Assembly (NCBI RefSeq): GCF_041261205.1
Contig: NZ_JBGCCH010000028.1
Coordinates: forward strand, 1-64,000
DNA from: Catenulispora sp. MAP5-51
GTDB lineage: Bacteria > Actinomycetota > Actinomycetes > Streptomycetales > Catenulisporaceae
DNA length: 64,000 bases
Reading direction: 5' to 3'
Positions 25,691 to 42,615 of this stretch are shown in pieces. Each line of letters starts with the position of its first letter. Position 1 is the first letter of the stretch. The notes under the pieces are model-generated. The model searched no databases and was not told the origin of the DNA. It worked only from the letters and a program-made list of their open reading frames with translations. A program made the translations under genes and the position numbers.

Positions 25691-25763
25691 AAAGCCGAAC
25701 AGAGCATGACAGAACGCTGATCCGATGCCACAGGCAGCGCCCTGGCTCGGAAGGAGAAGCCTG

Positions 25764-28700
25764 ATGTCCATCCACCTCCATCGGCCACCCCATAAGCCGC
25801 GCCGTCGGCCACCGGGTCTGACGGCCGTGCTCATGGCCCTCGCCGTCATCGTGGGCCTGTGTGTGCCGGCGGCCGCCGCGTCGACCACGGCCACGGCCGC
25901 GACCGGCACCGGCACCGGCACCCCGACATCGACGACCGAATACCCGGGCCTGGAAGCCCAGTACGGGCCCGCCACCGGCACGGCCGGCGGCAGCGACTGG
26001 ACCCTGGGGCCGGTGAAGAACACCATCGTCGATCCCGACATCGACTTCTCGGATCTGCTCCCCCGCCTCCAGCAGTTCGCCGGCAGCGGGACCGCCGCCG
26101 GGATCCAGTGGAGCGGCGTCATCCACGTGCCGACGGCCGGCAGCTACACCTTCAAGTGGTACGGGGACAACGGCTTCCGGATGTCGATCGACGGGAGCTC
26201 GGTCATCGACCACTGGGTCGACGACTGGAACGTCCCGGTCACCGCGACCGTGGACCTCACCGCCGGCGAGCATTCCTTCCAGGCGCAGTACTTCCAGGAC
26301 ACCGGCGGTGCGAACGCGCAGCTGTCCTGGGCGCCGCCCGGCCAGGCGATGGCGGTCGTCCCCGCCTCCGCCTTCACGCTGCCGCCCGGCTATGTCCCGA
26401 CCCTGACCAACGCCTCGCTGTCCACCGACGGCACACAGGTTCGGATGATGTTCAGCAAGCCGCTGGCCGCGTGGCCGGCGACGGCGACCAGCCACCTGAG
26501 CGTCGCGGGGTTCCCCATCGCCTCGGCGGCGCTGGATCCGACCGATCCGGCGACGCTCGTGGTCGTCCTCGGCGGCCCGCTCTACAAGACCTGGGCCAAC
26601 CTCACCATCGGCTATGACGGCACCGGCGGCGCCGACTACGCCGACGGCTCGGCTGTGCCGCTGTTCTACAGCGGTCTGGCCAACACCTCGACGGCGAACA
26701 TGACCACGCCGTGGGCCTCGCAGGTCAACCCGAACAACCCGCTGCCGGACTACCCCCGCCCGCAGATGACGCGGCAGCAGTGGCAGTCGCTCAACGGCAA
26801 GTGGAGCTTCCAGGGGCTGCCGGAGAGCACCGGCGCGACCGACGTCCAGACGCCGCCGGCGACCAGCGCGCACCTCACCGGCTCGATCGTCGTGCCCTAC
26901 CCGATGGAGTCGGAGCTGTCCGGCGTCCAGCAGCACTACGACTACTCCTTCTACCGCCGCACGTTCAACGTCCCAGCCTCGTGGCGGGTCGGCGGTCAGC
27001 GGACCGTGCTCGACTTCGGCGCGGTGAACTACCAGACGACGGTCTGGGTGAACAACGTCCAGGTCGCCACCCACACCGGCGGCTATCTGCCTTTCAGCGT
27101 CGACATCACCGCCGCCCTGAAGGGTTCGGGCCCGCAGCAGATCACCGTGGGCGTCAGCAACACCGACGCGCCCAACCAGCCGCAGGGCAAGCAGCAGCTC
27201 GACCCGTCAGGGATCTTCTATACGGCCTCCAGCGGCATCTGGCAGACCGTGTGGATGGAGCCGACGCCGGCCAAGCGCCTGGACCAGGTCGTGTTCACAC
27301 CGAACCTGCCGAGCGCGCCGAGCACCGCGAACGCCTCGGTCACCGTGGACGCGGTCAGCAGCACCTCGGCCGGCGGCCGCGTCACTGTCGCCATCACCGA
27401 CGGCCGACGGATCGTGGCCGTGGGCACCGGGACGACGAACACGCCGTTCACCATCCCATTGGCCGACCCGCATCTGTGGTCGCCATCGGATCCGTACCTC
27501 TATCACGCGACGGTCGTGCTGACCGACGGCTCCATCCCGGACGTGGTCGGTTCCTACTTCGGCGAGCGCACGGTGAGCGTCGGAGCCGTGAACGGGGTCA
27601 GCAAGATCCTGCTGAACGGCACCCCGACCTTCGTCGACGCGACCCTCGACCAGGGGTTCTGGCCGGACGGCATCTACACCGCACCGACCGACGCCGCCCT
27701 GAAGTGGGACATCACCGAGACCAAGGCCATGGGCTTCAACGCGATCCGCAAGCACATCAAGGTCGAACCGGCGCGGTGGTACTACGACGCCGACACCGCC
27801 GGGATGCTCGTCCTGCAGGACATGCCGTCGATGAACGCCGGGTACACCCCGACCGCCTCGGACGACACCGCGTTCCGGTCGCAGCTGCACCAGATGGTCG
27901 AGGACCTGCGCGGGGAGACGTCGATCATCTCCTTCGAGCCCTACAACGAGGGCTGGGGCCTGGACCGGAACACCGTGTCCAACGCGGTGAGCGAGGTCAA
28001 GGCGGCCGCCGCGCAGGTCCACGCCGACGACCCGAGCCGGCTCGTCGACGCCGAGTCCGGCTTCAACTGCTGCGGCAGCGTGAACACCGACACCGGCGCC
28101 GGCAACGTCATCGACTGGCACACCTACACCGGCCCGGCCGACCCGCAGCCCGACACCGCGGACAACCGCGCCGCCATCGACGGCGAGCACGGCGGCTGGG
28201 GCCTGGCCATCCCGGTCCACGACTGGGACCAGGGCTTCATCAACTACGCCGGCGCCGCCGACACCGCGCAGCTGACTCAGAAGTTCGTGCAGACGGCCGA
28301 CGCGGTCCGCGTGGAGGCCCAGTGCCAACTCTCCGGCAGCGTCTACACCCAGCTGACCGACGTCGAGGGCGAGGTCAACGGTCTGTGGACCTACGACCGC
28401 CGGGAACCGAAGATGGACATGTCCCAGGTCGCGGCGGCCAACGCCAAGATCATCGCGGCCGGGAGCAGCGCCGGCGACTGCGGCCAGAACGTCGTCAGCA
28501 AGGCGGGCGCCTGGCCTCTGACCGACGGAACCGGCACGGTCGCCAAGGACACGTCCGGCAACGGCGATGACGCGACGCTGTCGAACGGCGCCACCTGGGC
28601 CACCTCCGGCCCGAACGGCGGCGGGCTCCAGCTGAACGGGACCAACCAGTACGCGCAGACGCAGGGACCGCTGCTCAACAGCGCCGGCAGCTACACCGTC

Positions 28701-29117
28701 GCGGCCTGGGTCAACCTGAGCAAGAAGGGCGCGTTCGCCACCGCGGTGAGCGAGGACGGCACGGTGAACAGCGTGTTCTTCCTGCAATACGACTCCGCGG
28801 ACGACCGCTTCGCCTTCAGCAACGCCAACGCCCGAGCGGTCGGCAACACCGGCGCGAACGGCGGATCTCCGGCGACAGGTACCTGGTACCACATCGTCGG
28901 AGTCCGGGACGCGGCGGCGAACACCATGTCCATCTACGTCAACGGCACGCTCGCCGGCACGACGACCGTCTCGCCGGCCGACATGGCGACCGGCCCGATC
29001 GCTATAGGGCGCGCCAAATTCGGCGCGCAGCAGGTGGACTTCTGGCCGGGAAGCCTGGACGGCGTCCAGATCTTCCCGACGGCTCTGACAGCTGACCAGG
29101 TGTCCGCGCTCGGCTGA
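25764..29117 (+). CDS. Secreted GH2 glycosidase with PA14 and LamG modules
   Basis: Encodes 1117 residues. Order: signal peptide (about 1-38); PA14 sugar-binding module (about 50-205); a beta-rich segment; the GH2 sugar-binding, immunoglobulin-like and TIM-barrel domains (about 325-900); and a C-terminal LamG/concanavalin-like module (about 915-1117). The acid/base is Glu729 in EPYNEGWG and the nucleophile candidate is Glu808 in IDGEHGGWG. The family includes beta-galactosidases, glucuronidases and mannosidases; specificity cannot be read. The ATG at 25764 has GGAAGGAGAAG upstream; an earlier ATG at 25725 lacks one. An operator-like palindrome lies in its promoter and a terminator follows. 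Confidence 0.85.
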   Translation: MSIHLHRPPHKPRRRPPGLTAVLMALAVIVGLCVPAAAASTTATAATGTGTGTPTSTTEYPGLEAQYGPATGTAGGSDWTLGPVKNTIVDPDIDFSDLLPRLQQFAGSGTAAGIQWSGVIHVPTAGSYTFKWYGDNGFRMSIDGSSVIDHWVDDWNVPVTATVDLTAGEHSFQAQYFQDTGGANAQLSWAPPGQAMAVVPASAFTLPPGYVPTLTNASLSTDGTQVRMMFSKPLAAWPATATSHLSVAGFPIASAALDPTDPATLVVVLGGPLYKTWANLTIGYDGTGGADYADGSAVPLFYSGLANTSTANMTTPWASQVNPNNPLPDYPRPQMTRQQWQSLNGKWSFQGLPESTGATDVQTPPATSAHLTGSIVVPYPMESELSGVQQHYDYSFYRRTFNVPASWRVGGQRTVLDFGAVNYQTTVWVNNVQVATHTGGYLPFSVDITAALKGSGPQQITVGVSNTDAPNQPQGKQQLDPSGIFYTASSGIWQTVWMEPTPAKRLDQVVFTPNLPSAPSTANASVTVDAVSSTSAGGRVTVAITDGRRIVAVGTGTTNTPFTIPLADPHLWSPSDPYLYHATVVLTDGSIPDVVGSYFGERTVSVGAVNGVSKILLNGTPTFVDATLDQGFWPDGIYTAPTDAALKWDITETKAMGFNAIRKHIKVEPARWYYDADTAGMLVLQDMPSMNAGYTPTASDDTAFRSQLHQMVEDLRGETSIISFEPYNEGWGLDRNTVSNAVSEVKAAAAQVHADDPSRLVDAESGFNCCGSVNTDTGAGNVIDWHTYTGPADPQPDTADNRAAIDGEHGGWGLAIPVHDWDQGFINYAGAADTAQLTQKFVQTADAVRVEAQCQLSGSVYTQLTDVEGEVNGLWTYDRREPKMDMSQVAAANAKIIAAGSSAGDCGQNVVSKAGAWPLTDGTGTVAKDTSGNGDDATLSNGATWATSGPNGGGLQLNGTNQYAQTQGPLLNSAGSYTVAAWVNLSKKGAFATAVSEDGTVNSVFFLQYDSADDRFAFSNANARAVGNTGANGGSPATGTWYHIVGVRDAAANTMSIYVNGTLAGTTTVSPADMATGPIAIGRAKFGAQQVDFWPGSLDGVQIFPTALTADQVSALG

Positions 29118-32508: not shown

Positions 32509-32632
32509 AGTTCAGGTCTCCCAGGGGGCGGGGTCGTGCGGGCCGGGCAGCCGCGGACGAGGTGATCATAATGCGATTCGATCCGGTGCGCGGCCTGGCC
32601 AGTGCCAGCACCCGCCTTTCTAGTAAACCTTC

Positions 32633-32661
32633 TTGACAGGATCTACCGGGGCCGGTAGGTA
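32633..32661 (+). promoter_or_regulatory. Near-consensus promoter with a palindrome in the spacer
   Basis: TTGACA (32633-32638) and TAGGTA (32656-32661) are separated by 17 bp. The spacer and -10 contain CTACCGGGGCCGGTAG (32643-32658), a 7-bp inverted repeat that could be an operator. It drives the phosphoesterase-chitosanase gene, leaving a leader of about 125 bases. Confidence 0.6.
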
Positions 32662-32793
32662 TGAGTGTCAGTGGCTTGGCGTGGAAGTTCCGAACCGGAC
32701 ACGCTCAGAGGGATCTGACCCGGCCGCTTGCGGCCATATGCCGCCTTCTCGTTCCCCACCGCTTCGAGGGCAGCGTCCCTCAAGGAGACCGGA

Positions 32794-34953
32794 ATGCGAC
32801 TTCGGCACCCCTTCTCACCGGCCACTTCGTTGGCCACGAAACGGCGTCGCGCCGTGATAGCCACCGGCGCGGCCTTCCTGCTCACCGGGTTCGGCGTGGC
32901 GGCGACCGCCGCCGCGGGGTCCTCGACGGCGACGTCGGGACCTTCGGCTTCGGGCTTGCCCGTCTATGACCACATCGTGCTGGTCACCGAGGAGAACAAG
33001 TACTACGACGACATCGTCGGCAGCAGCAACGCGCCCTACATCAACTCCCTGATGAAGCAGGGCGCGTCGTTCACGAACTTCCACGGCACGACCCACCCCA
33101 GCCAGGGCAACTACGTGGCGTTGTTCTCCGGGTCCCTGCACGGGGTCGACTCCGACGACTGCCCGTACAACTTCAGCGCCGACAACCTCGGCAACCAGTT
33201 GCTGACCAGCGGCCACACGTTCGTCGGCTACTCCGAGAGCCTGCCCTCGGACGGCTCGAAGGACTGCGGCGACGACGGGAGCGGCGGGTACGCGCGCAAG
33301 CACAACGGCTGGGTCGACTTCGCCGACATCCCGGCGAGCTCGAACCTGCGCTACAGCCGGTTCCCGACCGACTTCAGCCAGCTGCCCACCGTGTCCTTCC
33401 TGACGCCGAACCTCGACGACGACATGCACGACGGGACGGTCAAGCAGGGCGACACCTGGCTGCACGACCACATCGACGCCTATGCGCAGTGGGCCAAGAC
33501 GCACAACAGCCTGCTGATCGTGACGTGGGACGAGAACGACGGCGACGACTCCAACAACCAGATCGCCACCACGATCGTCGGCGCGCACGTGACTCCCGGC
33601 TCCAGCAGTGGCACCCGCTACGACCACTACTCGCTGCTGCGCACCATGGAAGACATCTACGGCCTGCCGGCGCTGGGCAGCGCGGCCACGGCCGGCGACA
33701 TCGCGGGCATCTGGGACGGGGGCGGACCGCCGACCTCACCGTCCTCGCCGTCCTCGCCCTCCTCGCCCCCGACGTCGCCGTCCTCGCCACCGTCCTCGTC
33801 ACCGGCCGGCGACATCAACCTCGCGTTGCACCGAACGGCCACCGCGTCCTCCACGGAGAGTTCGTCGCTGAGTGCCGCCAAGGCCTTCGACGGCGACAAC
33901 GCGACCCGCTGGGGCAGCAAGGAGGGCTCGGATCCGCAGTGGCTGTCGGTCGATCTGGGGACCAGCTCGACGATCCACCAGATCAAGCTGAACTGGGAGG
34001 CCGCGTACGGCAAGGCCTATACGATCCAGACCTCTGACGACAACAAGACCTGGACAACCGTCTACAGCACCACCACCGGCAAGGGCGGAAACGAAACCCT
34101 TTCCGTCACCGGTCACGGCCGCTACGTGCGGATGTACGGCACCAAGCGCGGCACCTCCTACGGCTACTCGCTGTACGAGTTCGGGGTATACGGCCCCGAG
34201 CCCGCCACGCTCGCCCCGCCGGCAGACGCACGAGCGGACGTCACGACGACCCCCGCGGCGAGCGACCTGACCGCTCCGAGCAAGAAGGAAGCCGCACTGG
34301 AACTGGTCTCCAGCGCGGAGAACTCCTCGCTGGACTGGAAGGCGCAGTACGCGGCCATCGAGGACATCAGCGACGGCCGCGGCTACACCGCGGGCATCGG
34401 CGGATTCAGCTCCGGCAACGGCCACCTGCTCGACCTGGTGAACCTCTACACCCAGCGCGTCCCGAACAACGTGCTGGCCGGGTACCTGCCGGCGCTGCGC
34501 GCGGTCAACGGCAGCAGCTCGCACCGCGGCCTGGACCCGGGCTTCACCGCGGCCTGGCACACCGCGGCGCTGGATCCGGCATTCCAGCAGGCCCAGAACG
34601 ACGAGCTGGACCGGCTCTACTTCGACCCGGCGGTCGCCCAGGCCAAGGCCGACGGCCTGCACGCGCTGGGGCAGTTCGCCTACTTCGACGCGGTCATGAG
34701 CAGCGCCGACCAGGGCCAGGCCGGCCTCAGCGCGATCCGCGCCGCGGCCATGAAGCAGGCCCGCACTCCCGCGCAAGGCGGCGACGAGGCGACGTACATC
34801 AAGGCCTTCCTCAATGCCCGCGAGGCCGCGATGCACGGCGACTTCAGTCGAATCGACAGCGAGCAGCAGGTCTTCCTCGCCAAGGGCAACCTGGACCTGA
34901 ACGCGCCCCTGTCCTGGCAGACCGACGGCGACACGTACAACATCGCCGACTGA
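32794..34953 (+). CDS. Secreted phosphoesterase - F5/8C - GH46 chitosanase fusion
   Basis: Encodes 719 residues. A signal peptide with a basic KRRR stretch (about 1-45) leads to an acid-phosphatase/phospholipase C-type phosphoesterase domain (about 50-305): YDHIVLVTEENKYY, the THPSQGNY segment and TWDENDGDD. A Ser/Pro linker (about 310-340), an F5/8C module (about 345-470) and a C-terminal GH46 chitosanase domain (about 490-719) follow. GH46 catalytic residues are evident: Glu in SSAENSSLDWKAQY and Asp in EDISDGRGYTAG, with YFDPAVAQAKADGL and NLDLNAPLSW downstream. It should cleave chitosan and also release phosphate outside the cell. AAGGAG precedes the ATG at 32794; an earlier ATG at 32728 lacks a ribosome-binding site. 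A strong terminator follows. Confidence 0.87.
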   Translation: MRLRHPFSPATSLATKRRRAVIATGAAFLLTGFGVAATAAAGSSTATSGPSASGLPVYDHIVLVTEENKYYDDIVGSSNAPYINSLMKQGASFTNFHGTTHPSQGNYVALFSGSLHGVDSDDCPYNFSADNLGNQLLTSGHTFVGYSESLPSDGSKDCGDDGSGGYARKHNGWVDFADIPASSNLRYSRFPTDFSQLPTVSFLTPNLDDDMHDGTVKQGDTWLHDHIDAYAQWAKTHNSLLIVTWDENDGDDSNNQIATTIVGAHVTPGSSSGTRYDHYSLLRTMEDIYGLPALGSAATAGDIAGIWDGGGPPTSPSSPSSPSSPPTSPSSPPSSSPAGDINLALHRTATASSTESSSLSAAKAFDGDNATRWGSKEGSDPQWLSVDLGTSSTIHQIKLNWEAAYGKAYTIQTSDDNKTWTTVYSTTTGKGGNETLSVTGHGRYVRMYGTKRGTSYGYSLYEFGVYGPEPATLAPPADARADVTTTPAASDLTAPSKKEAALELVSSAENSSLDWKAQYAAIEDISDGRGYTAGIGGFSSGNGHLLDLVNLYTQRVPNNVLAGYLPALRAVNGSSSHRGLDPGFTAAWHTAALDPAFQQAQNDELDRLYFDPAVAQAKADGLHALGQFAYFDAVMSSADQGQAGLSAIRAAAMKQARTPAQGGDEATYIKAFLNAREAAMHGDFSRIDSEQQVFLAKGNLDLNAPLSWQTDGDTYNIAD

Positions 34954-35039: not shown

Positions 35040-36317
35040 ATGTACATCTCGTCGACGCGCCAAGTCCCCGCCGGTCCGGGGATCCCGGTGGTATCCGAAA
35101 GTTCCGATTCTCCTTCGGCGGCGCGGTCCCGGGCGGCCGTGGCCCCCAACGTGCTCGCACTGGGCTCGGTCAGCCTGGTCACCGACATCTCCTCGGAGAT
35201 GATCACGGCGGTGCTGCCGATGTACGTCATCTTCACCCTCGGCCTGAGCCCGCTCCAGTTCGGCGCGCTCAACGGCCTGTACTTCGGCGTCACCGCGCTG
35301 GTGCGGCTGGCGGGCGGGCACGCGGCCGACCGGTGGCAGCGCCGCAAGCTCGTGGCGGGCAGCGGCTACGCGCTGTCGGCCGTCTGCAAGCTGGGCCTGC
35401 TGGGCGCCGGTTCGTCGGTGCCGGTGCTCGGTGCCGTCATCGCCGCGGACCGCACCGGCAAGGGACTGCGCACCGGGCCCCGGGACGCGCTGATCTCCTT
35501 GAGCAGCACGCCGGAGACGCTCGGCCGTTCGTTCGGCGTGCACCGCGCCCTGGACACCATCGGGGCGTTCCTGGGTCCGCTGGTCGCCTTCGGGCTGCTG
35601 CTGGCGACCCCGGACCGGTACGACACCGTCTTCGTCGCCAGCTTCGGCATCGCGGCGTTCGGGGTCGTGATGCTGGCGCTGCTGGTCCGCGATCGGACGC
35701 AGGCCGTGGACCGGGAGAACCCGGTTTCCGTGGGCGCCGCGCTGCGGCTTCTGCTCCTGCCGCGCTTCCGCCGGGTCTGCATCGCCGCGCTGCTGCTGGG
35801 GGTCGTGGCGCTCAGCGACGCCTTCGTCTACCTGCTGCTGCAACAGCGCCTCGACATCTCCGCCGAGTACTTCCCCCTGCTGCCGCTCGGCACCACGGCC
35901 TCCTACCTGCTGCTCGCGGTCCCGTTCGGGCAGCTCGCCGACCGGGTCGGGAGGATCCGGGTGTTCGTCGGCGGCTACGTCGCCCTGCTGTGCGCGTATC
36001 TGATGTTGTTCGGACCGGTCGGCGGCGTGGTGTTGCTGCTGCCGACCCTCGCCCTGCACGGCTTGTTCTACGCCGCCACCGACGGCGTCCTGATGGCCGC
36101 CGTCGGGCCCATGCTGCCGGCCCATCTGCGGGCCAGCGGCATGGCCCTGATCCAGACCGGCCAGTCCCTCGCGCTGCTGGCGTCCTCGGTGCTGTTCGGC
36201 GCGGCCTGGGACCGGTGGGGACTGCACGCGGCCATCGCGGCGGCGGTGGTCTCTTTGGCCGCCGCGATCCTCGCGGCCCTGTGGATCCTCCCGCTCGCGA
36301 AAGAAAGCAAGGCATGA
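35040..36317 (+). CDS. MFS transporter
   Basis: Encodes 425 residues with about 10-12 membrane helices and the MFS signature loop between helices 2 and 3 (GGHAADRWQRRK). A hydrophilic N-terminal tail of about 40 residues precedes the first helix. The match is to proton-driven efflux-type MFS proteins of the 12-helix group; the substrate is unknown. GAGAGGACTGCC precedes the ATG. Its stop overlaps the next gene by ATGA, so the transporter and the TolB-like secreted protein are co-translated. Confidence 0.83.
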   Translation: MYISSTRQVPAGPGIPVVSESSDSPSAARSRAAVAPNVLALGSVSLVTDISSEMITAVLPMYVIFTLGLSPLQFGALNGLYFGVTALVRLAGGHAADRWQRRKLVAGSGYALSAVCKLGLLGAGSSVPVLGAVIAADRTGKGLRTGPRDALISLSSTPETLGRSFGVHRALDTIGAFLGPLVAFGLLLATPDRYDTVFVASFGIAAFGVVMLALLVRDRTQAVDRENPVSVGAALRLLLLPRFRRVCIAALLLGVVALSDAFVYLLLQQRLDISAEYFPLLPLGTTASYLLLAVPFGQLADRVGRIRVFVGGYVALLCAYLMLFGPVGGVVLLLPTLALHGLFYAATDGVLMAAVGPMLPAHLRASGMALIQTGQSLALLASSVLFGAAWDRWGLHAAIAAAVVSLAAAILAALWILPLAKESKA

Positions 36318-37354
36318 ACACGCGCTCCCGAGTACTGATACTGGCGGCCTCCGGACTCGTCGCCGCCACCGCGATCACCGGGTACGTGGTGAACGCCCAT
36401 GACGCCGCGGCGGGTACTGGAACCGGTGCTGGCACGACCGGCAGCATCGATCTCAGGACGGCCGAGAGGACTGGGACGCCCGGCACGCCCGGCACCGCCA
36501 CCACGATCCTCTTCCGCGACACCGCACCGGGGCCCGAATTCGGCCACGTCGCCTCCGTCCCGGCCGCCCACCCCGGCGCCGCGCCGACCGTCAGCAGCAC
36601 CCTGTGCGACCGCTTCTACGCGGCCCACGACACCGCCGTCTGCCTCCAGCGCGGAGGCGCGCTCCCCGCCACCTACGCCACCGTCCTGGACCACTCCCTG
36701 CACCAGGTCCGCCAGGTCAAGACCGCCGGCTTCCCCAACCGCGCGCGGGTGTCCGCCAGCGGCACGATGGTGTCCTGGACGACCTTCGTCCAAGGCGACT
36801 CCTACCTCAGCGACGACTTCTCGACCCGGACCTCCATCCTGGACACCAAGACCGGCCGGCTCGTCGACACCATCGAGAGCATCCCGCTGACCCTGGACGG
36901 CAAGCCGTACCACGCCGCGGACGTGAACTACTGGGGCGTCACCTTCGCCGCGGACGACAACACCTTCTACGCCACCGTGCGGACCGGAGGCCGCACGTAC
37001 CTCGTCCAGGGCGACTACCGCGCCTGGACCGCGCGGACGTTGCGGGAGAACGTCGAATGCCCCTCCCTGTCGCCGGACGGCACCCGCCTGGTGTTCAAGA
37101 AGCGCGTCGACGCCAGCGCGAACCGGCCCTGGCGGCTCTACGTCCTGGATCTGCGCACGATGGTGGAAACGCCGCTCGCGGAAGAACACAGCATCGACGA
37201 CCAGGCGGCCTGGCTCGACGACCACACGGTCATGTACGGCCGGCCCCGGCAGACCGGCGGCGACTGGGACGTCTGGGCCGTGCCCGCCGACGGCGGGGGC
37301 GAACCGCGGGTCCTCATCCCCGACGCGAGTTCCCCGACCCCCCTGGGAGGCTGA
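36314..37354 (+). CDS. Exported TolB-like beta-propeller protein
   Basis: Encodes 346 residues. An N-terminal hydrophobic segment (VLILAASGLVAATAITGYVV) is a signal peptide or anchor. A Gly/Thr-rich stretch follows, then repeated WD40/PD40-type blades such as PSLSPDGTRLVFKKR and WDVWAVPADGGGEPRVL. This is a TolB-like six-bladed propeller acting outside the membrane, probably by protein or ligand binding. It overlaps the MFS gene by four bases (ATGA), suggesting the two proteins work together. No catalytic residues are recognisable. Confidence 0.72.
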   Translation: MNTRSRVLILAASGLVAATAITGYVVNAHDAAAGTGTGAGTTGSIDLRTAERTGTPGTPGTATTILFRDTAPGPEFGHVASVPAAHPGAAPTVSSTLCDRFYAAHDTAVCLQRGGALPATYATVLDHSLHQVRQVKTAGFPNRARVSASGTMVSWTTFVQGDSYLSDDFSTRTSILDTKTGRLVDTIESIPLTLDGKPYHAADVNYWGVTFAADDNTFYATVRTGGRTYLVQGDYRAWTARTLRENVECPSLSPDGTRLVFKKRVDASANRPWRLYVLDLRTMVETPLAEEHSIDDQAAWLDDHTVMYGRPRQTGGDWDVWAVPADGGGEPRVLIPDASSPTPLGG

Positions 37355-40380: not shown

Positions 40381-42615
40381 TCACAAACCCAACCGGCGCC
40401 GCACCCCGGCGATCTCCGTCAGCGCCCACGCCTTCGACTCGCTGGCGGGCAGGGCGTGTCCGATTCTCGCCGCGTCGCCGACCAGCCTCGCGGCGTGGTC
40501 GGGGTCGGCGGGGATCAGGGCTTCGGCGACCATGGCCAGGGCGCGGGCCCGCCACGATTCGGCGGCGATCGTGTACGCGACCGTCTCGGCCTCGTCGGGG
40601 TCGGTCGCGGCCAGGGCTCCGGCGAAGGTGGCCAGGGCACGGGCCCTGAGTTGCGGGTCGGTGATGTTATAGGCGATCGTGCCGGCGCGGTCGGGGTGGT
40701 TCGCGGCCAGTTCCTCCGCGAGCATCGTCAGGGCCCATGCCTTCGACTGCGGGCGGGCGATGGAGGCGGCGACGGTCTCGGCGCGGTCGGGGTCGCTCGC
40801 GGCCGCCGCCTGCACGATCTCGGCCAGGGCCAGCCCCTTGGATTCCGCGTCGGTCATGGCTTCGGCGATCCTCTCGGCTTCGTCGATCAGCCCGGCGGCC
40901 CGTTGCGGGTCGCTCGCGGCCAGCGCCGTCGCCACCATGGTCAGCGCCTGGACGTGGGCCGATTCCTCGATCGACTCGTGGGCGATCGCCTCGGCCTGGG
41001 CGAGCAGTCTGGACGCGCGGGCCGGGTCGTTCGCGGCCGTCACCGACGCGACCTTCACCAGTGCCGAGACCCGCGAGAACGAGTCGACGATCCTGCGGGC
41101 GATCCCCTCGGCCCGGTTCGGCGCGTTCGCGGACAGCGCCTCGGCGACGGCGGCCAGGGCCCAGCCCTTCGCCGACTCGTCGGGGACGGCCAGGGCGATC
41201 TCCTCGGCCTCGCCGACCAGGCTCCCGGCCCGGTCGGGGTCGCCGGGAGGGACCGCTGCCGCGATCTTGACCAGGAGCTCGGCCCGCGTCGGCGGGTCCT
41301 GGACGGTGCCCGCGATGAGCGCGGCTTCGGCGACCAGCCGCGCGGCCCGGCGCTCGTCATACTCGGCCACCGCTTTCGCGATCGCGGCCAGCGTCTCAGC
41401 CCTCGACAAGCTCACTGAGATCTGGCGCGCCAGGAGCTCAGCGGTGTCCATGATGGTTTCCGTGGTGGTGTCCGTGGCGTGGTCGGTCGCCGTCGGGATC
41501 CCGGGCGACAGGACTCCGGCGGTATGGGTGGCGGCGCGGCCCGGTGCCGCCGGTACCCTCCCGGAGACCGGGACCGAGGCCGAGGCCGAGACCGGTCGAG
41601 GGCGCAACGCGGCACGTGCCACGTCCGCGACGTCCGGACGGTCGCTCTCAGCGATCTTCCGAAGTTCATCACGCGCGGCCCGCACCCGGCGGAGGTCGGG
41701 GTCGTCCAGCCATTCGGCGAGGACCTCCACGGCAGCCGCCCGGATCTTCGGGTGCTGATGCCCCAACGTCGCCCGGAGATCCTTCGGCAGCGGCGCAGGC
41801 TGAACGCTGCGCCGCACCATCGTTTTCCGGTGCGCGGAGTTGCGGCCCGTCGCGGGTTTGCCCTTGCTGTAGGCGGGGTTCGGCGTGAGGGCGAGCTGAT
41901 CACCGGTCGCGGTCCCGCGCTGTTGCGGCTCGGGCAGCCCGTCGGCGCGCAGCCGGGCCCGCATGTGCCGGTAGATATCGCCCAGGCTCAGATCCGGCCC
42001 GGCATCCGGATTCCCGGCCCGGAGCAGTTCCAAGAGCCGCCCGGTGAACGCGGTGTGGCGCTCACCGGGCAGGGCCGCGCTCGCCGGCCGGGTGGCCGGG
42101 GACGCGGTGAGGGTGTAGGTCCCGGCGATGTCCAACGGCTCCAGCACGTCGGTGCCGCCCAGGATCGGCCCGATCGCCTTACCGCTGTAGCAGCAGTCGA
42201 GAATGACCACCCGACTCCGGGCCGCAGAGCCCAGGAAGACATCGCGCACCGCGTCGAACGGCAAGGCCGTGAACGCCGGACGGTCGATTCCGGTGCCGGC
42301 CAGGCTCAGATACAACTCCGCCCGGCTCCTCGTGGGGAACCCGTGGCCGGCGTAGTAGAACAGAAGCAGGTCCTCGGCCTCGTCGGCGGCGGCGATCAGC
42401 AGGTTCCCGACCTGCTCCACCCCGGCGCCGGCCGGCGCGACCAGCAGATGCCCCGGATCGAAGGCGCCCAGCCCCGGATCGGTCAGCACTTCGGTGAGAT
42501 CGGTGATGTTGTTGGCGATCGCCGGCTCGTCGGGGATGGCCGCGTCGGTGTACGCCTCCACCCCGACCAGGATGATCCGCGAGCGAGCCGGATCCACGCG
42601 GCGGACCTCGTTCAT
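40381..42615 (-). CDS. EACC1-associated caspase-like protease with helical repeats
   Basis: Encodes 744 residues. The N-terminal 230 residues form a caspase (C14) domain with the dyad His91 in FYYAGHG and Cys142 in ILDCCYSG. A HEAT-like segment lies at about 285-345 and a low-complexity linker at about 345-395. From about 395 to 744 run eight to nine helical repeats of about 36-42 residues with the pattern A-x-x-x-V-A-x-A-L-A-x-x-D-P-x-R-A, a TPR/HEAT-like solenoid. The ATG overlaps the EACC1 gene stop as ATGA. In this family EACC1 accompanies varied effector domains; the caspase is the effector and the solenoid may sense or bind a target. Confidence 0.88.
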   Translation of the reverse strand: MNEVRRVDPARSRIILVGVEAYTDAAIPDEPAIANNITDLTEVLTDPGLGAFDPGHLLVAPAGAGVEQVGNLLIAAADEAEDLLLFYYAGHGFPTRSRAELYLSLAGTGIDRPAFTALPFDAVRDVFLGSAARSRVVILDCCYSGKAIGPILGGTDVLEPLDIAGTYTLTASPATRPASAALPGERHTAFTGRLLELLRAGNPDAGPDLSLGDIYRHMRARLRADGLPEPQQRGTATGDQLALTPNPAYSKGKPATGRNSAHRKTMVRRSVQPAPLPKDLRATLGHQHPKIRAAAVEVLAEWLDDPDLRRVRAARDELRKIAESDRPDVADVARAALRPRPVSASASVPVSGRVPAAPGRAATHTAGVLSPGIPTATDHATDTTTETIMDTAELLARQISVSLSRAETLAAIAKAVAEYDERRAARLVAEAALIAGTVQDPPTRAELLVKIAAAVPPGDPDRAGSLVGEAEEIALAVPDESAKGWALAAVAEALSANAPNRAEGIARRIVDSFSRVSALVKVASVTAANDPARASRLLAQAEAIAHESIEESAHVQALTMVATALAASDPQRAAGLIDEAERIAEAMTDAESKGLALAEIVQAAAASDPDRAETVAASIARPQSKAWALTMLAEELAANHPDRAGTIAYNITDPQLRARALATFAGALAATDPDEAETVAYTIAAESWRARALAMVAEALIPADPDHAARLVGDAARIGHALPASESKAWALTEIAGVRRRLGL

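Follow-up and report, generated by a model that had tools for sequence, protein, structure and literature searches.

The locus and the three-domain protein

The window, by which we mean the whole stretch of 64,000 nucleotides analysed (positions 1 to 64,000 of contig NZ_JBGCCH010000028.1 from Catenulispora sp. MAP5-51), contains a single open frame of 719 amino acids that joins a PF04185 phosphoesterase, a CBM32 module and a GH46 chitosanase domain, followed on the same strand by an MFS transporter gene and the gene of a beta-propeller protein (Table 1). The Shine-Dalgarno sequence of the fusion, AAGGAG, stands 6 nt before its ATG, and the propeller start overlaps the MFS stop by ATGA. That three domains lie in one protein had been proposed in a first-pass annotation made from the sequence, and Pfam places all three above cut-off: PF04185 Phosphoesterase with 127.4 bits against a cut-off of 23 (residues 79-292), PF00754 F5/8 type C with 90 bits (residues 349-462) and PF01374 Glyco_hydro_46 with 268.6 bits against a cut-off of 27 (residues 503-706). 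A full-length AlphaFold model of the fusion from 7 sequences had a mean pLDDT of 40.1 and was not used. Elsewhere in the window are a 1130-aa protein with PA14, GH2 and LamG-like domains (25725-29117, forward strand) and a gene with a caspase-like Peptidase_C14 domain (40384-42615, reverse strand).

Table 1. Features of the fusion locus, in positions of the window
Feature	Position	Strand	Remark
AGTAAACCTTCTT, matching the CsnR-box palindrome with 3 mismatches	32622..32634	+	candidate decayed operator
Promoter-like TTGACA, 17 nt, TAGGTA	32633..32661	+	TTGACA kept in 7/7 fusion genomes
Element after the -10 box, GGCTTGGCGTGGAAGTTCCGAACCGGACACGCTCA, 35 nt	32673..32707	+	recognisable in 7/7 fusion genomes
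Phosphoesterase-CBM32-GH46 fusion CDS	32794..34953	+	ORF translation, Pfam
Putative N-terminal export signal, RRR and hydrophobic stretch	32794..32916	+	Tat-like by eye; sequence
Compact PF04185 phosphoesterase domain, residues 55-308	32956..33717	+	E67, N68, S103, H212, D246, E247
Pro/Ser-rich linker, residues 309-341	33718..33816	+	sequence
CBM32/discoidin module, putative chitosan-binding type, residues 342-467	33817..34194	+	Pfam, PDB matches
GH46 domain, residues 491-719	34264..34950	+	scaffold kept, cleft residues partly gone
Glu509 codon (CsnN174 E22, general acid)	34318..34320	+	GAG in window, CAG (Gln) in four sister copies
Asp527 codon (CsnN174 D40, general base)	34372..34374	+
His544 replacing subsite -2 aspartate (CsnN174 D57)	34423..34425	+
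MFS transporter, second cluster gene	35040..36317	+
PD40-like beta-propeller, N-terminal hydrophobic stretch, third cluster gene	36314..37354	+	PD40 19.0 bits, below cut-off 20.9

Full-length fusions occur in 5 of the 14 genomes of the family, all of the genus Catenulispora itself, and in one more genome of the order (G188), so that the order has at least 6 carriers among 391 genomes; the order-wide searches scored some candidates per genome and the long-frame matches were opened in part, so such counts are lower bounds. Two short peptide patterns, used for a further scan, revealed the fusion in Streptomyces anandii as well. We call the proteins of S. anandii and of G188, a member of another family of the order whose genus we take as Streptomyces, the Streptomyces-side fusions. 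The four same-genus orthologues are 81-83% identical to the window protein, S. anandii 64% and G188 62%, and the last two share 82% identity over 688 columns. The single open frame, together with these full-length orthologues in four other Catenulispora genomes, S. anandii and G188, rules out an assembly or frameshift artefact. In a 396-genome sample of the phylum no genome outside the order had a phosphoesterase as close as E 1e-80. The expectation that the fusion is uncommon thus holds, and the literature searched, which was judged by title and abstract and with subscription papers mostly outside reach, yielded no studied example, as the first-pass annotation had supposed.

With regard to a single origin of the fusion, the phosphoesterase domains of all 7 fusions form one clade (99/97), and the corresponding one-clade test for GH46 gave a p-AU of 0.099. 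The GH46 tree groups the window copy with L003 and L005 (96/86); the phosphoesterase tree sets it outside the other four Catenulispora copies (85/83), so that the acid Glu of the window GH46 may have been either retained or regained. Five genes with GH46 in a long frame (L144-L148) were tried as further candidates, and tblastn with the window's domains found no phosphatase fusion among them.

Seven residues of the phosphoesterase domain (E67, N68, S103, D210, H212, D246 and E247) are invariant across an aligned set of 30 domains, and all of these except D210 are counterparts of NPC4 residues (in order, E23, N24, T158, H264, D299 and E300) that matter for NPC4 activity according to PMC9837106. 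The core catalytic residues on which the first-pass annotation depended are therefore present; S103, placed by motif, would be the nucleophile equivalent to T158. A model of the domain from 30 related domains reached a pLDDT of 90.4, and the predicted fold matches RePLC (Z 25.4, rmsd 2.2, 238 aligned), AcpA (Z 25.0, rmsd 2.4, 244 aligned) and NPC4 (Z 22.5, rmsd 2.3, 233 aligned), as well as PlcN and a Streptomyces glycerophosphoethanolamine phosphodiesterase, all five within Z 21.8-25.4, rmsd 2.2-2.5 and 233-244 aligned residues. Two observations count against the explanation favoured below. Positions 1-105 of the PF04185 profile, which are expected to hold NPC4 D76 and H79, are unaligned in the compact phosphoesterases, where H97, H101 or H170 could possibly substitute for that pair, and a Leu replaces the nearly invariant His278 in both Streptomyces-side fusions (L069, L075). 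Leu at this position is also seen in 2 of 24 non-fusion domains, the stand-alone L085 and L088.

The best PDB matches of the window CBM32, at 148-150 bits, are CBM32 chains of a glucanase/chitosanase; these chains (4zy9, 2rv9, 4zxe, 2rva and 4zz5), which we take to be the DD1/DD2 modules of Paenibacillus IK-5, score 115-150 bits and the next CBM32-like chain scores 43. PMC4663542 and PMC5635096 describe the IK-5 modules as binders of chitosan and as kin of the CBM32 modules that actinobacterial GH46 enzymes carry. Judged by its matches, the window CBM32 is of the chitosan-specific type, nearer to chitosan-binding modules than to other CBM32.

The operon slot and its promoters

Fusion, MFS transporter and beta-propeller follow one another in the same order and on the same strand in 7/7 fusion genomes. 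In the stretches retrieved for the other six, neither the divergent LuxR-type gene of the window nor its downstream Vgb-like gene was matched. A search with the propeller, scoring at most 5 candidates per genome shown, gave matches in 174 of the 391 genomes of the order, and among the matches listed 144 rows were from outside the fusions. In 42 of these 144 listed rows a stand-alone PF04185 gene of the same orientation precedes the propeller, at a spacing of 1.26-1.65 kb in 41 and of 79 bp in one; the 42 pairs were placed by coordinates alone, the presence of an MFS gene in the gap being checked in two (L159, L160). Ninety-two of the remaining 102 rows were fetched and classed, for a total with the 42 of 134 loci among the matches listed. 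A phosphatase gene stands upstream in the cluster at 98 of these 134 listed loci, 44 times of PF04185 type and 54 times of calcineurin type, the latter comprising 42 CBM32-phosphatases, 5 GH46-CBM32-phosphatases and 7 phosphatases alone. The other 36 listed loci are 26 with an MFS gene and other upstream genes, 7 with the propeller only and 3 that were too short. Because the sampled species are related, these counts are not counts of independent events.

The MFS-propeller pair also takes part in another type of cluster: at 22 of the 26 listed loci with other upstream genes (including L170, L178 and L180) a glycosyltransferase-like ORF, identified by eye, comes first (GT2-MFS-propeller). Also by eye, a ribosomal-protein-S1-like ORF, shared by 3 of the 26, precedes a second MFS-propeller pair of the genus itself (L162, L165, L173), and an EfeO-type (imelysin-like) gene follows the compact stand-alone PF04185 genes L014, L015 and L021.

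Pfam confirmed Metallophos in three of the three calcineurin-type examples tried, and among the matches listed all five metallophosphatase motifs are present in 45 of the 52 calcineurin-type ORFs found. One such phosphatase has purple acid phosphatases as its closest solved relatives (E 1.5e-5). In one such protein the CBM32 has as its nearest matches the glucanase/chitosanase modules already found for the window CBM32 (115-130 bits, next 37). From the clusters so classed it follows that two unrelated phosphatase families have each been fused with CBM32 and GH46; the operon slot is the same for both, and the order of the domains is opposite.

The CsnR box, AGGAAANTTTCCT, is the operator of chitosanase genes (PMC6097792, with the S. 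lividans site in PMC4856308). The review PMC6097792 names as CsnR targets the chitosanase genes and the csnR cluster, and a term search of its available text returned no word starting with "phosph". We counted upstream boxes with at most 2 mismatches, for which Markov sequence gave 2 in 1000 and natural controls were also used. The box precedes all 30 of 30 stand-alone GH46 genes. Among the matches listed it also precedes 38 of the 40 CBM32-phosphatase operons scanned (of 42), 5/5 GH46-CBM32-phosphatase operons and 5/7 operons with the phosphatase alone, giving 48 of the 52 calcineurin-type operons that were scanned, and among those matches it was found in 0 of 24 rows of stand-alone PF04185 (22 distinct genes) and 0 of 22 GT2-MFS-propeller rows. 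An exact box lies before both of the two Streptomyces-side fusions. None of the five Catenulispora fusions has a box within 2 mismatches, the best in the window having 3, and the genome of the window contains no exact box and 6 one-mismatch sites, compared with 5 control sites. Sequences such as TTTCTGGTAAACCTTCTTGACA near the Catenulispora promoter may be remnants of a CsnR box. The 35-nt element downstream of the -10 box differs little or not at all among the five Catenulispora genomes, is recognisable in the two Streptomyces-side fusions, and could possibly be the operator of another regulator.

PHO boxes consist of 11-nt direct repeats with GTTCACC repeats (PMC6283541 and PMC9019756). Repeats of this kind matching at 10/12 or better occur in 8 of 19 stand-alone PF04185 genes, in every case 221-257 nt before the matched domain; the same level is reached in 1% of Markov sequence and in about 8% by a suspect shuffle, and the 19 genes are related. 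Before the fusions and the calcineurin-type operons there were no such repeats above background, the best in the window being 8/12.

State of the chitosanase domain

The first-pass annotation described a full chitosanase with its Glu and Asp catalytic residues, so that the protein would be truly bifunctional, with phosphoesterase and chitosanase both working in a joint acquisition of phosphorus and carbon/nitrogen. The best PDB match of the GH46 domain is CsnN174 from Streptomyces sp. N174 (1CHK, 302.7 bits). We aligned it with 31 stand-alone enzymes, one from the genus plus the 30 with the highest scores in the order, and took the roles of residues from a review (PMC4663542), which calls the acid Glu "invariable". 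E22, Y34, D40, R42, T45, I49, T55, D57, H150 and H200 are conserved in 31/31 of the stand-alone enzymes and E197 in 30/31. The window copy retains E22, D40, R42 and T45, the catalytic Glu and Asp having been correctly identified, and with them an Arg-Asp-Arg network (R190, D145, R205), all of which speaks for a bifunctional protein. The word "full" was nevertheless too strong: the copy carries Y34A, I49G, T55N, D57H and H150S and, in the alignment, a deletion of the E197-A199 loop, and it has thereby lost D57, Y34, T55, H150 and the E197 loop, positions that vary in no more than one of the 31 stand-alone enzymes. With several residues of the substrate cleft gone, an intact chitosanase is not supported for the window copy, and we infer that its activity is weak or absent.

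The sister copies extend this pattern. All four other Catenulispora fusions have E22Q, the acid Glu being lost, and L003 has D40N and T45I in addition. Read in the order window, L003, L005, L004, L006, the five copies have EQQQQ at E22, ASSYY at Y34, DNDDD at D40, TITTT at T45, GAAAA at I49, NNTSS at T55, HTTDD at D57, SNNHH at H150, --AEE at E197 and HGGPP at H200. The scaffold residues W28, W101, D145, R190, R205 and W227 are kept in 5/5. In both Streptomyces-side fusions the cleft is intact save I49V, four other stand-alone GH46 proteins from the genus (L105-L108) retain Glu and Asp as judged by eye, and the segments seen of the five GH46-CBM32-phosphatase proteins retain Glu, Asp and D57. 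Counting conserved positions altered in any Catenulispora fusion, we find 8 of 15 in the cleft against 22 of 94 elsewhere (p 0.021, or p 0.0086 with E36, which is absent from the review's table). For the window alone the losses are 4 of 15 in the cleft against 15 of 94 (p 0.25), no significant excess, so it is all five copies jointly that support the claim of cleft decay.

In the Catenulispora fusions the GH46 domain evolves at roughly double the rate of the phosphoesterase. Specifically, the omega of the window copy against its four relatives is 0.18 for the phosphoesterase, 0.34 for CBM32 and 0.42 for GH46, with a bootstrapped ratio of GH46 to phosphoesterase of 2.34 (95% interval 1.28-4.31). 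No such excess is seen in the Streptomyces-side pair, where the values are 0.34, 0.24 and 0.32 and the ratio is 0.93 (0.48-1.72). The intact-looking GH46 and exact CsnR box of that pair would suit a bifunctional enzyme there, but for the window protein the cleft losses, the missing acid Glu of the four sisters and the raised omega make it unlikely that both enzymes work. What stands of the proposed joint acquisition is a link between phosphorus and chitosan, which operon and promoters strengthen; what lacks support is an intact chitosanase in this copy.

The same losses could mean that the domain has no role left at all and has simply been degrading since the chitosan regulon was lost, only phosphoesterase and CBM32 mattering in Catenulispora. 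Cleft losses in 5/5 copies, the raised GH46 omega, the lack of a CsnR box within 2 mismatches and the lack of an exact box in the window genome all suit this reading. However, all five copies have an open GH46 frame with its fold residues, and omega over all ten Catenulispora pairs is 0.34. For these reasons the GH46 fold still seems to be under selection, and we regard a roleless domain as no likelier than two working enzymes.

A putative chitosan-aimed phosphatase and known systems

Building on the domains, residues, conserved cluster, interchangeable phosphatase folds and CsnR boxes (those of the calcineurin-type operons and the Streptomyces-side pair) that the computation establishes, we favour with moderate confidence the explanation that the window protein is a secreted phosphatase aimed at chitosan, in which the phosphoesterase is the working enzyme and the chitosanase is poor or dead in Catenulispora. 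The phosphoesterase is under the stronger constraint and both the cleft and the CsnR box have been lost, which leads us to this reading; what counts against it is the presence of both catalytic carboxylates in the window GH46, the lack of a significant excess in the cleft losses of the window alone, and the lack of a CsnR box within 2 mismatches before the Catenulispora fusions or of an exact box in this genome. Relatives place an unrelated phosphatase, controlled by the chitosan switch, in the same slot, and the release of phosphate thus seems tied to chitosan. That the domain is instead an antifungal phospholipase C, cleaving membrane phospholipids once the wall-binding parts have docked on a fungus, is quite improbable: RePLC, NPC4 and PlcN are among its closest solved folds, but the acid phosphatase AcpA is tied with RePLC (Z 25.0 against 25.4), and the unrelated calcineurin-type phosphatase in the same slot, in one case with purple acid phosphatases as best solved relatives, points to phosphate release and not lipid cleavage.

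For a chitosan-aimed phosphatase, the most likely job would be the release of phosphate held on chitosan. The AcpA/phospholipase-C-type fusion would be exported from the cell, CBM32, probably helped here by the GH46 fold, would anchor it to chitosan such as that of Mucoromycota walls, the phosphoesterase would free phosphate from chitosan-associated phosphate, and the MFS transporter and beta-propeller protein of the cluster would handle a product. Mucoromycota walls hold both chitosan and polyphosphate (PMC7307774), and the Kitasatospora setae chitosanase Csn2 with its CBM32 outperforms the CBM-less form on chitosan-polyphosphate (PMC5635096). Chitosan-bound polyphosphate is a better-motivated candidate substrate than the mannophosphate first suggested.

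More tentatively, we propose an operon for scavenging phosphate from chitosan, controlled by the chitosanase repressor CsnR, in which either of two phosphatase folds has been joined independently to CBM32 and GH46, with an MFS transporter and propeller of its own, and which would feed on the chitosan-polyphosphate of fungal walls; Catenulispora would have lost the link to the regulon, its chitosanase turning into a module that grips chitosan. No description of such an operon was found in the literature searched by title and abstract. What PMC6097792 describes of chitosan use by actinomycetes concerns chitosanases and the csnREFGHK uptake cluster, and a phosphatase operon under the CsnR operator would bring in phosphorus. 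Two unrelated phosphatases each fused to modules that bind and cut chitosan fit the chitosan-polyphosphate of Mucoromycota walls, and a GH46 that is intact on the Streptomyces side and degenerate in Catenulispora offers a natural series from enzyme to binding module.

Among known systems, the CsnR regulon (csnA, csnREFGHK) shares its AGGAAANTTTCCT box with the Streptomyces-side fusions and the calcineurin-type phosphatase operons, whereas the window lacks a clear box. CsnN174 has the fold residues and the catalytic Glu and Asp in common with the window GH46, but the latter is without D57, Y34, I49, T55, H150 and the E197 loop and sits behind a phosphoesterase. K. setae Csn2 likewise joins a chitosan-type CBM32 to GH46; it differs from the window protein in having a canonical active GH46 and, in the available description, no phosphatase domain (PMC5635096). 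The phosphoesterase shares fold and core catalytic residues with AcpA, NPC4, RePLC and PlcN of PF04185, but is a compact domain of 254 residues that covers profile positions 106-356. The GH46-CBM32-Metallophos proteins such as L143 combine the same three functions and the same MFS-propeller cluster as the window protein, but their phosphatase belongs to the unrelated family PF00149 and their domain order is reversed.
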